From: a virus
Reading direction: 5' to 3' (one strand)
Length of the DNA: 61,233 bases
IMG/VR virus record: IMGVR_UViG_3300047550_005071
Coordinates: 1 to 61,233 of that record
The notes below the pieces were generated by a model that saw nothing but the letters and a program-made list of their open reading frames with translations, made no database searches and was not told the DNA's origin. How positions within the stretch are numbered: the first letter of the stretch is position 1; the number at the start of each line of letters is the position of its first letter. The position numbers and the translations under genes are program-made. Positions 7,245 to 53,987 of the stretch are shown here, in pieces.

Positions 7245-7260
7245 ACAAGTTTAATTTTCT

Positions 7261-48844: not shown

Positions 48845-48872
48845 CCTTATTAATAATTATATTTTATTCTAT

Positions 48873-49268
48873 ATGGAAACAAAAAAACAACAAAAGATAG
48901 AATTCAAAGAAAGCCCAATCCACGGACTTGGTGTATTTGCAACTACAGACATAGAAAAAAATGAAGTCATTGAAGTGTGTCCCATATTATTTTTACCTGC
49001 AAAAAGAGGAGATACCAACTATACTTTAGTTGATTACGCATTTGAGTGGCCAAGGTCTGAACATTGGACAAACTTTGTTATTGCTTTAGGGTACGGCTCA
49101 TTGTATAACCACTCCAACAACCCGAACGCAAATTGGACAAATGACGTTGAAAATAACACATTCATATTTTTTTCGACCCGAGAAATTAAAAAAGGGGAAG
49201 AAATATTCATCTGCTACGGTGACGACAGTTATTGGGCGGACGGAAGAACCCATGTTGAGGTAAAATGA
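48873..49268 (+). CDS. SET-domain protein (putative lysine methyltransferase)
   Basis: A 131-residue protein. I use ATG 48873 (METKKQQKIEFKES), which gives the usual SET start. The extra upstream frame is A/T-rich and unlikely. It has the SET motifs: HGLGVFATTDIEKNEVIEV near residues 17-35, GYGSLYNHSNNPNANW (N79-H80-S, N83-P-N) and REIKKGEEIFICYGDDSYW (Tyr115). These form the S-adenosylmethionine pocket and the knot of SET methyltransferases. SET proteins in bacteria and viruses methylate lysines on varied proteins, and the target here is not known. The stop overlaps the start of the helicase gene as ATGA, so the two are made together. Confidence 0.85.
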   Translation: METKKQQKIEFKESPIHGLGVFATTDIEKNEVIEVCPILFLPAKRGDTNYTLVDYAFEWPRSEHWTNFVIALGYGSLYNHSNNPNANWTNDVENNTFIFFSTREIKKGEEIFICYGDDSYWADGRTHVEVK

Positions 49269-51025
49269 GTTTAACTGAAATATCATTAGAATCAAAAGCA
49301 CTATCGATACTCGAACAATATGAAGGTGCGAACAATTATATATTGGAGTTAAAAAGAAAATCTCTAATAAATAAAAAATTCTATCCAACAAGAAGTCAGT
49401 CAGAATATATAATTAATAACCACGACAAACAACCAAAGGTAGCAAAGAAGTGGGTAATCCTTGATGCTTATTTTGCACAAAAATTGGCTGACGACAAACT
49501 TTACACTAACGTTCCTGAAAAAGTTTGGGTAGAAAAACTTTTAGCTGAAAAAGACAAAGCTTATCACATTTGGGGGAAAGTTTGGGAGACAGAACAATTT
49601 TACGATTTTTGGTTACCAAAAGCATCGATTATAAAAGACAACACGGTTAAAGACGTTGTTATCGATTTCACCAAATACACAAAAAGACCTCCGCTATCAC
49701 ATCAAAAAGAAGCAATACAGAAGTTAGTTGAAAACAAAAAGTATATTCTTGCAGATGATATGGGATTGGGTAAGACAACATCTACAATCATAGCCGCATT
49801 AGAAACGGGGGCAAAAAAGGTTTTGATAATTTGTCCAGCGACTTTAAAAATAAACTGGAAAAGAGAAATTGAAAACTACTCCCAAAAATCAATATACATC
49901 GCAGAAGGAAAACATTTTAGTACTGAACACGACTTTGTAATAATAAACTACGACATATTAAAAAACTTCCATGACTCCAAGAAGAAAGATGACTCTCAAA
50001 TTCTTGCTGCCAATTTTGATTTGGTGGTCGTTGATGAGGCACACTATATCAAAAATGCTCAAGCGCAAAGAACTAAGTTAATTAACGATATTGTAAAAAA
50101 GGTTGATAGACTTTGGTTATTAACAGGCACTCCAATGACCTCAAGACCAATAGACTACTATAATCTATTAAGTTTAGTTGACTCCCCTGTTGCCAAAAAT
50201 TGGATGGCGTATGTTATCAGATATTGTAGTGGATACCAATTTAAGGTGGGTGCTCGTAAAGTTTGGAACGTAATGGGTTCTTCGAACTTGGAAGAGTTAA
50301 GAGAAAGAACATCTAACACAATTACAAGAAGACTAAAAGAAGATGTTTTAGATTTACCCGATAAGATTATAACACCAGTTTATTTGAGACTCAAATCAAA
50401 AGACTATGAAGAGTTGATGGGAGAATATTATAATTGGTATGAGAAAAACCCCGACGAGTCAAAATCCCTAACAGTTCAGTTTACCAAGTTAACAAAAGTA
50501 AGACAAGTAATAGCCAACGAGAAAATTTCTCAAACAATTGAATTAGCCGAAAACATTTTAGAGCAAGGTAAAAAAGTTATCATTTTTTGTAATTTTACTG
50601 ATTCATTAAATCAGATAGTGGAACACTTTGGGAAATCTGCGGTAAAGGTTGACGGGTCAATGACCAAACAAGACAGACAATTCAGCGTTGACCAATTCCA
50701 AGAAAACGAAAAAATCAAAGTTTTTGTCGGTAACATAAAAGCGGCTGGTGTAGGTTTGACTTTAACCGCAGCTGAAGCTGTTATTATGAACGACTTATCA
50801 TTTTTACCATCGGACCATTCACAAGCAGAAGACAGAGCATATAGGTTTGGTCAAAAAAATAATGTACTTGTTTATTACCCAATTTTTGAAAACACTATAG
50901 AAGCTGTTATATATGATATACTTAATAGTAAGAAACAAGTAATTGCAACCGTAATGGGAGACAACCTCGGCGGAGGGGATGTTGCAGAAGAAATTCTGAA
51001 AAGAATCAATGAACTTAGACCATAA
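49265..51025 (+). CDS. SNF2-family helicase / UvsW-like ATPase
   Basis: A 586-residue protein with the SNF2 motifs in order: motif I ILADDMGLGKTTST (about 160-172), motif Ia KVLIICPATLKINW, motif II VVVDEAHYIKN (about 255), motif III LWLLTGTPMTSRP, motif IV IIFCNFTDSL, motif V VGNIKAAGVGLTLTAA and motif VI SQAEDRAYRFGQ. The N-terminal 150 residues are a separate domain resembling the HARP-like part of fork-remodelling SNF2 proteins (annealing helicases such as SMARCAL1). It probably remodels replication or recombination forks, as UvsW does in T4. It forms a coupled pair with the SET gene. Confidence 0.88.
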   Translation: MSLTEISLESKALSILEQYEGANNYILELKRKSLINKKFYPTRSQSEYIINNHDKQPKVAKKWVILDAYFAQKLADDKLYTNVPEKVWVEKLLAEKDKAYHIWGKVWETEQFYDFWLPKASIIKDNTVKDVVIDFTKYTKRPPLSHQKEAIQKLVENKKYILADDMGLGKTTSTIIAALETGAKKVLIICPATLKINWKREIENYSQKSIYIAEGKHFSTEHDFVIINYDILKNFHDSKKKDDSQILAANFDLVVVDEAHYIKNAQAQRTKLINDIVKKVDRLWLLTGTPMTSRPIDYYNLLSLVDSPVAKNWMAYVIRYCSGYQFKVGARKVWNVMGSSNLEELRERTSNTITRRLKEDVLDLPDKIITPVYLRLKSKDYEELMGEYYNWYEKNPDESKSLTVQFTKLTKVRQVIANEKISQTIELAENILEQGKKVIIFCNFTDSLNQIVEHFGKSAVKVDGSMTKQDRQFSVDQFQENEKIKVFVGNIKAAGVGLTLTAAEAVIMNDLSFLPSDHSQAEDRAYRFGQKNNVLVYYPIFENTIEAVIYDILNSKKQVIATVMGDNLGGGDVAEEILKRINELRP

Positions 51026-51249: not shown

Positions 51250-51272
51250 GAAACATTAAAACACTTACGAGT

Positions 51273-51279
51273 TATTTAT
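51273..51279 (+). promoter_or_regulatory. TATTTAT motif upstream of the superoxide dismutase fusion
   Basis: The plus strand reads CGAGTTATTTATATAAAACAAA, 22 nt before the ATG at 51302. This is a plus-strand copy of the motif, so the orientation follows the gene and not the genome strand. Confidence 0.5.
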
Positions 51280-51301
51280 ATAAAACAAATAACTCCAATA
51301 C

Positions 51302-52840
51302 ATGAAGAAAATTGAAGAAAGGATTCAACAAATTGAAAAACAAATTACCGAAAACCATATCGAAACAGAAAAACAATTGTTGATTACCGAAATGAAAAAA
51401 ATTGGAATAGAAAAATTACCATATTCCTATTCAGCCCTCAAAGGATTTATCGATGCAGAAACGATGAATTTCCACTACAACAAACACTATAAGGGATATG
51501 TAGATAAATTAAATGCGGCACTCTCAAAGAAAAAACACGGAGACTTAGACTTAGAAAAAATTGTTAAAAACATTAGTCGATACGACCAAGTAGTTAGAAA
51601 CAACGCAGGAGGAGCTTTCAATCACGCACTTTTTTGGAACATGTTAACCCCAACACCAAAAAAATTAACAGGGGAACTCTACAACAAAATAACCAAACAA
51701 TACGGAACGTTTAATAGTTTCAAGAAAAAATTTGAAACAATCGCCAAAGAAAGATTCGGTTCGGGTTGGGTGTGGTTAGTTTTAACATCTAAGAACACGT
51801 TAAAAATTATGTCTACTCCAAACCAAGACAATCCACTGATGAATATAATTGAAGGTGGAGGTTTTCCGCTTTTAGGTTTGGATTTGTGGGAACACGCATA
51901 TTATTTAAAATACAGAAACAAAAGGGACGAATATATTGCAAATTTTTGGAAAGTAGTTAATTGGGATTTTGTACAAAAATTGTATGAAATGAAAACCGAA
52001 ACCAAACTATTGGAATCTGAAAATTTTCAAAAATTGTTGGTTGAATCAAAAGAACCTCAATTTTGTAATCCAAAAGAGGTATTATATTATAGGGATTTAA
52101 TTAACAATTCAAAAATCAAAAAGATTTATCAAGACGGTGTAACCTACGTTCTCAAAAAGAAATTTAATCAATGGTGGGTTGAAGGTACAACAGATGAAAT
52201 GTCTGGTTTCTACGGTGTAGAATCACCTGAAGGCAGGTCAATTCTGAACAATTTGAATACCAACTTTAACGCATTTTGTTTGTTAGTTAAGGCAGTTAAT
52301 AAACAAATTGAAAATATTGGTAAACCTGAAAAGATGTTTCATTTTTGGAAACAAGAAAAAAGAAATCCAAAAGAAACAGCTAGATTTATAGTAGCGTTAG
52401 ACCACTTCAAAGATGAAATATTCACTAAAAATAATGAAGACTTTATAAACATCATCAAGGTATTAAAAAAACTTTGGGACAGAGGTCAAAAATCTGAAAA
52501 CAACGCTAATAAAAAAATTGAGGATTACTTTGAAGGTCGTGCGAAAGTCGAAAAAGTTGGGTCGCATGGCGCAAAAATGGACGCTTTCAAAGGAATTGAT
52601 TTGAAAATCAATTTGGAAGGGACTGAATATTCTGCTCAAGTTAAGCCATTTTCAAATGTTGTTGTCGTTGACGATAAGATAAAATTGATGGACACAGGGA
52701 ATGTAAAACATTATGATGTGGATTGGTTGATTTTTTCTAACCCAAAATCAAACAAAATACTTATATTCAAAAATGACCCAATCAGTGATAAAGACCAGTA
52801 CGTTTTCAATATTGATTCGTTATTACACGAAATAGAATAA
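51302..52840 (+). CDS. Mn/Fe superoxide dismutase fused to a PD-(D/E)XK nuclease-like domain
   Basis: A 512-residue protein in three parts. Residues about 38-230 form a complete Mn/Fe superoxide dismutase. All metal ligands are present: H58 (FHYNKHYKGY), H108 (FNHALFW), D194 and H198 (GLDLWEHAYY). The gateway residues H62 and Y66 are also present, and the Gln at 175 (TPNQDNPL) sits where Mn-type enzymes have theirs. Residues about 235-400 are a helical linker domain of unknown fold. Residues about 405-512 match a PD-(D/E)XK nuclease core with Q in place of D/E: GAKMDAFKGIDLKI then EYSAQVK (D433, Q446-x-K448), with E407 or E411 as the helix acid. Superoxide dismutation is well supported. Nuclease action is inference. 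It has its own TATTTAT motif and lies between helicase and neck genes. Confidence 0.82.
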   Translation: MKKIEERIQQIEKQITENHIETEKQLLITEMKKIGIEKLPYSYSALKGFIDAETMNFHYNKHYKGYVDKLNAALSKKKHGDLDLEKIVKNISRYDQVVRNNAGGAFNHALFWNMLTPTPKKLTGELYNKITKQYGTFNSFKKKFETIAKERFGSGWVWLVLTSKNTLKIMSTPNQDNPLMNIIEGGGFPLLGLDLWEHAYYLKYRNKRDEYIANFWKVVNWDFVQKLYEMKTETKLLESENFQKLLVESKEPQFCNPKEVLYYRDLINNSKIKKIYQDGVTYVLKKKFNQWWVEGTTDEMSGFYGVESPEGRSILNNLNTNFNAFCLLVKAVNKQIENIGKPEKMFHFWKQEKRNPKETARFIVALDHFKDEIFTKNNEDFINIIKVLKKLWDRGQKSENNANKKIEDYFEGRAKVEKVGSHGAKMDAFKGIDLKINLEGTEYSAQVKPFSNVVVVDDKIKLMDTGNVKHYDVDWLIFSNPKSNKILIFKNDPISDKDQYVFNIDSLLHEIE

Positions 52841-52859: not shown

Positions 52860-53987
52860 ATGGCAGCATTACCAGAACCAGAAAGAAGTAGGATATACAC
52901 GAGAATCAAACATCTCTTGGGGGCTCCACTTAGAAGTGTAGAGCTTGAGGATGAAATGATGGACTCACTTATGGAATTGTCCATTGGAGATTATGAAGAA
53001 TACGTTCTTCAATGGTTGATTGATTCTCAGTGGGTTAACCTTGTAAATTTGAACATGAACGAAAAATCTGTTGCTCGTGCATTGGTTACAAGAACGATGG
53101 ATTTTGAACAACAATTTTCATACGCATATTCTAAAATTGTTGGTTTACAAACCGTAGGACCATGGGTTTTGAAGAAGGATTATTTCATATTGGAGAAAAA
53201 CAAACAAGATTATGAAATCCCAGCTGGTCGTGAAGTTAATGAACTTTTATGGTTTAGTAACCAACCTTGGACCGCATTTGGATTAGGTGGGGTTGGCGGA
53301 TTTGGATTTGGCGGTATTGGTTTGGGAGCAAATGAAGCAGGATACGCTCAAATGGGATACCAAGGCTCTTATTTTATGATGTCTGGTTTCGATTATCTTA
53401 TTAGAATGCAAGAAGCCAATATTCTGAATAGAATCTTAGGTGGTTCACTTACTTATAGAATTACAGGTTTACCTGATGGTAAAAAATTAATTCACCTGTA
53501 CAATACTCCAGGAGGCAGATTCAATTGGAGTAACTACAGCCTTTATGTTGGTAAAGCGGTATGGTATTGGTATTACGATGTGGAACCTGATAGTAGAGCC
53601 GATTGTTTGAAAAACAATCCCGATATTATAAAATTACCAACTGATGTACCTATAGAAAGTTTAAGTTGGGAAGATTTGAATGTTCCTGGACAACAATGGG
53701 TAAGAAGATGGTTCACTGCTTATTGTAAAGAAACATTAGCAAGAGTCAGAGGTAAGTATAGTGGTAATTTGAAAACTCCTGATTCTGAAATTACAATGGA
53801 CTATCAAAGTCTTTTGACTGAAGCTAAAGATGAAAAAACAAAATTGTTAGAAGAATTAGTTGGTGAAAACGGATGGTTATCAAGATTGAGACCTGAAAAG
53901 GTGATGGAAAGGGAAGCCTTGATTGCTGAAAACTTGAATAAACAAATGAAATTCAGAGCAATGCCTCGTCAAATTTATGTAATCTAA
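52860..53987 (+). CDS. 13: Neck / head-completion protein, gp13-like
   Basis: A 375-residue protein. The N-terminal half is helical and acidic (RIYTRIKHLLGAPLRSVELE, then MDSLMELSIGDYEEYVLQWL), the form of T4-like gp13 neck proteins that sit on the portal. The second half has the aromatic beta strands seen in that family (KAVWYWYYDVEPDSRADCLK, then WVRRWFTAYCKETLARVRGK). A Gly-rich loop at residues about 141-158 (GLGGVGGFGFGGIGLG) is unusual and may be disordered until assembly. T4 gp13 has 309 residues. It lies on the plus strand, although the gp14-, gp15- and sheath-like genes are on the minus strand, so the neck genes are split between strands. Identification is tentative. Confidence 0.55.
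   Translation: MAALPEPERSRIYTRIKHLLGAPLRSVELEDEMMDSLMELSIGDYEEYVLQWLIDSQWVNLVNLNMNEKSVARALVTRTMDFEQQFSYAYSKIVGLQTVGPWVLKKDYFILEKNKQDYEIPAGREVNELLWFSNQPWTAFGLGGVGGFGFGGIGLGANEAGYAQMGYQGSYFMMSGFDYLIRMQEANILNRILGGSLTYRITGLPDGKKLIHLYNTPGGRFNWSNYSLYVGKAVWYWYYDVEPDSRADCLKNNPDIIKLPTDVPIESLSWEDLNVPGQQWVRRWFTAYCKETLARVRGKYSGNLKTPDSEITMDYQSLLTEAKDEKTKLLEELVGENGWLSRLRPEKVMEREALIAENLNKQMKFRAMPRQIYVI

Follow-up and report, generated by a model that had tools for sequence, protein, structure and literature searches.

A phage gene that encodes a superoxide dismutase (SOD) joined to a nuclease-like domain raises the question of whether the two halves truly form one protein, and what such a protein would do for the phage that carries it. 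The gene lies in a 61,233-nt stretch of viral DNA (IMG/VR record IMGVR_UViG_3300047550_005071, positions 1 to 61,233), referred to here as the window. The gene and its chain are laid out as follows.

51302..52840, + strand: SOD-nuclease gene, 512 amino acids, one uninterrupted frame of 512 codons
51302..51391, + strand: helical N-terminal extension, residues 1-30, a possible propeptide judged from motif and conservation
51407..51991, + strand: SOD domain (Mn/Fe superoxide dismutase, SodFM1-like), residues 36-230, placed by Pfam, relatives and residues
52019..52435, + strand: helical part, residues 240-378, without known family, placed by an AF2 model and family searches
52436..52837, + strand: predicted PD-(D/E)XK nuclease-like core, residues 379-512, with E399, D433, Q446 and K448

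The original prediction had placed the SOD and the nuclease-like domain in one chain, and the single 512-residue frame agreed with this. A pattern scan found relatives encoded in at least 599 IMG/VR stretches, and in 147 loci the SOD and nuclease shared one frame (these are loci and not phages, some being different cuts of one contig, and they comprise 70 distinct proteins). The architecture, sought in other phages, is common. The probability that an assembly or frameshift artefact joined two genes is negligible. Two loci (L282 and L283) would fit an artefact, as they carry the SOD and a window-type nuclease in separate overlapping frames, which points to a split gene or to a frameshift in sequencing; the same chain, however, was open in all 147 loci, which refutes this explanation for the window type. 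In codon comparisons the median dN/dS rose from 0.04 in the SOD through 0.13 in the helical part to 0.20 in the nuclease, all rough values because synonymous sites were partly saturated. These values show, at the level of codons, purifying selection on the chain.

The surroundings of the gene were fixed as well. The order SNF2 helicase, SOD-nuclease, neck gene was found in 147/147 loci, and 15-36 nt separated the SOD-nuclease from the neck gene in nearly all of them.

49265..51025, + strand: SNF2-type helicase gene, upstream in 147/147 loci
52860..53987, + strand: neck gene (head-tail adaptor, phrog_211), downstream in 147/147 loci

The gene had been proposed not to be a passenger, and its retention as a whole chain at a fixed position under purifying selection supports this. 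Contigs with relatives reach 317-326 kb. In about half of the loci a SET-domain gene (in the window at 48870-49268, Pfam E 5e-19) is found in the neighbourhood of the SOD-nuclease, and another SET-domain gene (L082:2491-2928, Pfam E 2e-14) adjoins the standalone nuclease of a 735-kb phage that is described below.

It had also been claimed that no protein of this architecture was described. This stood for the open literature that was searched, which gave no report combining an SOD, a PD-(D/E)XK nuclease and a gp21-processed internal protein; each of these is already known, and the combination is unreported in that literature. A review of jumbo phages covers SNF2 helicases, gp4 and REase-fold proteins and does not mention SOD (PMC7824862). 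The claim did not stand for sequence databases, given the IMG/VR stretches and the UniProt entry A0A6J5L953 (501 aa, uncultured Caudovirales phage). This entry came out of a structure search of viral proteins, its model matching all of the C-terminal half (TM 0.79, 29% identity). It is divergent and annotated as superoxide dismutase only, and judging from the model it probably has the same SOD-nuclease architecture. The same search showed a similar domain in a 1113-aa marine-phage protein (TM 0.76). INPHARED held no full-length relative. A bacterial origin of the fusion was considered and set aside: no fusion was seen in 395 Bacteroidia genomes, and among the matches listed in them none extended into the nuclease half.

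Pfam recognised both halves of the SOD (Sod_Fe_N at residues 36-115, E 1.6e-22; Sod_Fe_C at residues 123-226, E 9e-40), and the best solved relative of this part was a Sphingobacterium MnSOD (E 4e-60), the others being Bacteroidota and other MnSODs. The metal ligands H58, H108, D194 and H198 were invariant in 70/70 distinct full-length homologues, as were the gateway residues H62 and Y66 and Q175. Gly192, at position X(D-2), was present in 70/70 homologues and in 57/57 more distant phage SODs, and the catalytic residues, Q175 included, were also intact in 57/57 of the latter. The predicted integrity of the ligands, gateway pair and Gln175 was therefore upheld. Judged by these residues the enzyme is apparently active and of the Mn-type SodFM1, a class that, with SodFM5, is defined by a water-coordinating C-terminal Gln and in which Gly at X(D-2) is frequent; this Gly is common in Mn-preferring enzymes, and metal use is unreadable from sequence alone (PMC10172142). 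SodFM1 MnSODs such as the Sphingobacterium enzyme (6gsc) have the same four ligands, gateway His/Tyr, C-terminal Gln and Gly two residues before the Asp. Unlike bacterial SodFM1 enzymes, the phage chain has one more helix at the N-terminus and carries a partner fused behind the SOD, and its SOD is at most about 54% identical to the sampled bacterial SODs. Other phages (PA5oct-like Pseudomonas jumbo phages and Vibrio phage 2.275.O) also encode an Fe/Mn SOD, but these are 26-29% identical and the match is confined to the SOD part. Ordinary bacterial-type SODs were seen in a further set of INPHARED 'phage' records (H1-H9, e.g. OR844989 and AFYI01000005), some of which are titled as Salmonella genomes and may be bacterial contigs.

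The C-terminal half was recognised by structure. Residues 231-512 had no significant match in Pfam, PHROGs or PADLOC, and comparison with the PDB by sequence gave chance matches only. An AF2 model of these residues built with 25 homologues (pLDDT 83.8, pTM 0.75) placed E399 on a long helix, followed by strands with D433 and Q446-x-K448; in the model of the full chain the SOD was badly placed (shallow alignment). Foldseek against the PDB put PD-(D/E)XK enzymes on top, I-Ssp6803I first (prob 1.00, E 2e-3, TM to target 0.44-0.48), with further matches to SPARDA nuclease subunits, Hjc, NhoI and RecU. The predicted fold and the order E, D, QxK are shared with I-Ssp6803I (itself an enzyme with the QxK motif), the SPARDA subunit and Hjc. 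All four residues were conserved in every homologue having the stretch, standalone versions at about 25% identity included, and were invariant in fusions with only 28-35% identity. On this model, the assignment of the C-terminal half as a PD-(D/E)XK nuclease-like domain holds. The original prediction had confined the core to residues 405-512; the fold and the E, D and QxK residues bear out the family, but the core begins before residue 405, because E399 lies in helix 379-409. Compared with the named PD-(D/E)XK families, there is no sequence-level match and a helical region of about 140 residues precedes the core. A relative also encodes a second PD-(D/E)XK-like protein (L171:4195-5466, minus strand, 423 aa), which showed weak similarity (E 4.9e-8) to the nuclease profile.

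Both modules also occur apart. The 735-kb phage LR756501.1 (L082) encodes a standalone C-terminal half of 290 aa (46 bits against the profile, where the highest score among 2000 shuffles was 7.8), and a standalone nuclease half of 288 aa is encoded in L097 (IMG/VR 3300042261_000981). A search for further standalone nucleases of the 735-kb-phage type gave one contig only. LR756501.1 (735 kb) encodes the short peptide motif D-P-Y-G-E-E-x-W 103 times and the 54-kb contig L097 encodes it 23 times, in many otherwise unrelated ORFs and with varied codons; the reversed-pattern control gave 0 and 0. A standalone phage SOD of 241 aa was found in L084 and L234 and branches next to the fusion SODs, on a long branch that is to be read with care. 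The L084 contig (JAJTEO010000009.1, binned into a Fluviicola MAG) had given the best seemingly bacterial relative of the SOD, and a bacterial source was rejected: the contig is viral, its SOD being 100% identical to one on a 222-kb IMG/VR contig.

A scan with the standalone SOD gave 80 more phage SOD loci with 57 distinct chains, the more distant phage SODs mentioned above, and the SOD residues were intact in all. Most of these are at the same locus, where the order is SNF2 - SOD - neck - small gene - DNA polymerase. In 46 of the 57 chains (L234-L313) the SOD is preceded by an N-terminal HEW[VI]H domain that fits no clear Pfam family and is metallopeptidase-like, by motif only. At the other end, 21 of the 57 chains have no C-terminal partner and 6 have the window-type nuclease. 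A second partner type, found in 5 chains counting mixed ones, has a core that hhalign matched with the nuclease (prob 86, E 4.6e-6). The third type (15 chains, counting one mixed) was unrelated to the nuclease by hhalign, and its PD-(D/E)XK look (RGxDFE..PYD..KISCK) is only a guess. Another, repeat-bearing type was found in 10 chains, again counting one mixed. Because the same locus keeps the SOD while the partner varies, the SOD is the constant part and the nuclease an exchangeable cargo, which argues against the nuclease as an essential packaging enzyme of the group. The predicted picture of a redox enzyme tethered to a DNase was put in doubt by this swapping and loss of the partner, and also by a tether that looks cuttable.

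T4 gp21 cleaves on the C-terminal side of L/I-X-E, and foreign proteins, staphylococcal nuclease included, can be directed into T4 heads by short N-terminal targeting sequences (PMC9026906). Candidate sites of this type stand on both sides of the SOD.

51383..51394, + strand: pre-SOD candidate site I28-x-E30 / M31, L/I-x-E type in 70/70 fusions and 54/57 of the wider set
52007..52018, + strand: candidate linker site L236-L-E238 / S239, L in 70/70, E in 70/70 and S in 67/70, x varies
52037..52048, + strand: candidate linker site L246-V-E248 / S249, L/I in 70/70, E in 67/70 and S in 55/70

The middle residue of the pre-SOD site was T, N or Q in the fusions and, over both sets, one of eight (T, M, N, L, S, K, Q or F). 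The N-terminal extension has I15-x-E17 in 68/70 and ends at I28-T-E30. The second linker site reads ITES in many homologues. The site pattern is tested most strongly by whether a partner follows: within 25 residues after the SOD, [LIV]xE[ST] was found in 31 of the 35 wider-set chains with a partner of at least 40 aa and in 0 of the 21 that lack one. A double linker site was seen in 49/70 homologues as against 0.15% of shuffled linkers, and in a 321-kb relative (G002) the SOD-nuclease was the sole ORF of 322 with two [LI]xES at most 15 aa apart, N-termini aside (P about 8e-5 for two in one linker at the proteome rate); the pattern had already been noticed when these site statistics were calculated, and the homologues are not independent.

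The same motif marks the beginnings of other proteins of this relative. [LI]xES was enriched 5.3-fold in the first 20 residues of the G002 proteome, as tags such as MSKKIVRLTESD, and about 20 of its proteins (L214-L230) start with sequences like KK[IV][VI][RK]LTESDLxRLVxxVxKEQ or with MKY[IL]ITES/ILTES; tags were also found in L171. They resemble T4 capsid targeting sequences with an LTE/S cleavage site. The linker of the fusion, KxKLxES...LLxE, resembles these tags in turn, and from its residues it looks like an N-terminal tag left inside the fusion. The G002 capsid protein has only two [LI]xE[SAG], one of which (INE/A, 58-61) is near the gp23 propeptide border. An S77 prohead protease was found in 4/4 relatives searched (E about 1e-22); the 61-kb window itself is a fragment.

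At the level of sequence, the domain joins resemble places where the phage's head-maturation protease would cut. Against cleavage and packaging counts that L/I-x-E is a short motif, that the second linker site is at the end of a predicted helix, and that the divergent fusions L300 and L303 have IDE/E and L[TS]E/D, not LxES. The N-terminus of the SOD-nuclease is also without a clear KK[IV]xRLTES tag. Moreover the nuclease can work unpackaged, because the standalone nucleases of L082 and L097 have no such tag.

The gene had further been predicted to have its own promoter-like motif. As a generic sigma-70 promoter this was rejected, since 13 sites near the gene against 9.1 in shuffles is no excess. 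A candidate motif of the phage group gives the prediction firmer ground: TTATTTAT, 22 nt upstream of the start, was invariant in 22 diverse homologues.

51272..51280, + strand: TTATTTATA, candidate phage late-promoter element common to tail genes
51269..51295, + strand: weak inverted repeat around the upstream motif, two pairs changed on both sides

TATTTATA was found in sense within 80 nt upstream of 6 of the 39 window genes (0.42 expected, 0 antisense), at window positions 7260, 39433, 41323, 42824, 57086 and 51272. Four of these genes are in the tail/baseplate region, and the others are the DNA polymerase and the SOD-nuclease. TATTTATA is a candidate late promoter of the phage group, and its distribution supports the view that the SOD-nuclease may be co-expressed with structural genes.

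Our leading model, to which we give a little less than an even chance, is that the SOD-nuclease is a late, head-packaged polyprotein that is cut by protease and delivers both parts to the host. The protein would be made together with the structural genes and enter the prohead, where the S77 (gp21-type) protease would cut the chain into free SOD and free nuclease. Both would then travel with the DNA into the next host cell, like T4 internal proteins. Superoxide near incoming or packaged DNA would be cleared by the SOD. The targets of the nuclease, soon after entry, would be the DNA of the host, of plasmids or of rivals, or it would process branched DNA of the phage itself. A virion protein was among the roles originally proposed, and it has the best, if indirect, support, because of the border sites, the prohead protease, the motif common to tail genes and the pairing with a neck gene. 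The T4 internal proteins (IPI-III, Alt), which carry a capsid targeting sequence and are cleaved by gp21, likewise have L/I-x-E at their borders, an S77 protease gene, exchangeable cargo and a late context. They differ in that the cargo here consists of enzymes of known superfamilies and the sites are internal and not only N-terminal, and here we infer packaging. The wider proposal, that the SOD is the constant core of head-packaged polyproteins whose swapped metallopeptidase-like, PD-(D/E)XK and other parts are released by the prohead protease and delivered, so that the virus would arrive with an antioxidant enzyme and a DNase of its own, is put forward more tentatively.

An uncut bifunctional cytoplasmic enzyme would explain the neighbours differently, although we consider it unlikely. 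It would act with the SNF2 helicase on branched phage DNA, as a resolvase or packaging nuclease replacing Endo VII or gp4, and its SOD would keep superoxide off the DNA or off the metal site. The SNF2 gene adjacent in 147/147 loci and the fold matches to Hjc and RecU fit this, as does a search of four near-complete relatives of 317-326 kb in which the families Endo VII, RuvC and gp4 gave no match (for Endo VII and gp4, T4 served as positive control). In T4, gp49 is located at the portal (PMC3012670), and the head-completion nuclease gp4 (TnsA-like) is likewise a restriction-fold nuclease among head and neck genes; the SOD-nuclease, however, has no match to phrog_218 or PF08722. Many relatives at the same locus have no nuclease attached, so the nuclease cannot be the group's essential one unless another gene fills in, and one relative has another PD-(D/E)XK-like gene (L171). 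LR756501 moreover has both a true gp4 and the standalone nuclease. An essential substitute for gp4 or Endo VII is disfavoured on these grounds. An unpackaged cytoplasmic DNase directed at host or rivals (genome degradation, superinfection exclusion or plasmid clearance), with an SOD that protects the infected cell, seems to us quite unlikely. Exchangeable nuclease partners would fit an arms race and the fold matches include SPARDA nucleases. The SNF2 neighbour is similar to the Zorya defence protein ZorD, but ZorD has the SNF2 helicase and nuclease in one chain and here they are separate genes. Against it, the gene downstream is structural and the candidate promoter motif is that of structural genes, and the flanking L/I-x-E sites are left unexplained. 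The SOD-nuclease itself has no defence-family match in PADLOC; a defence system was rejected for the same reason, and the proposed defence-sensing role found no evidence.

The SOD might also be merely a dimerising scaffold for the nuclease, its dismutase activity being irrelevant. Many PD-(D/E)XK nucleases act as dimers, which counts for this reading. SodFM1 enzymes are homodimers (PMC10172142). The scaffold is nevertheless very improbable: the ligands and second-sphere residues are all invariant, the SOD has the lowest dN/dS of the chain (0.04 against 0.13-0.20), and it persists in relatives without any nuclease.

An SOD in a phage is commonly classed as a metabolic helper gene. The SOD of this locus belongs to the core genes of a widespread group of jumbo phages; it is tied to nucleases, lies beside neck and tail genes and is flanked by sites of the head-protease type. 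The exchangeable-cargo locus is a place to look for new nucleases and counter-defence proteins, and the L/I-x-E sites offer a way to read the internal head proteins of uncultured giant phages. If the SOD-nuclease is packaged, it would be the first case known to us of a tailed phage that delivers an SOD with its genome, and whether phages face an oxidative burst at entry would become a directly testable question.
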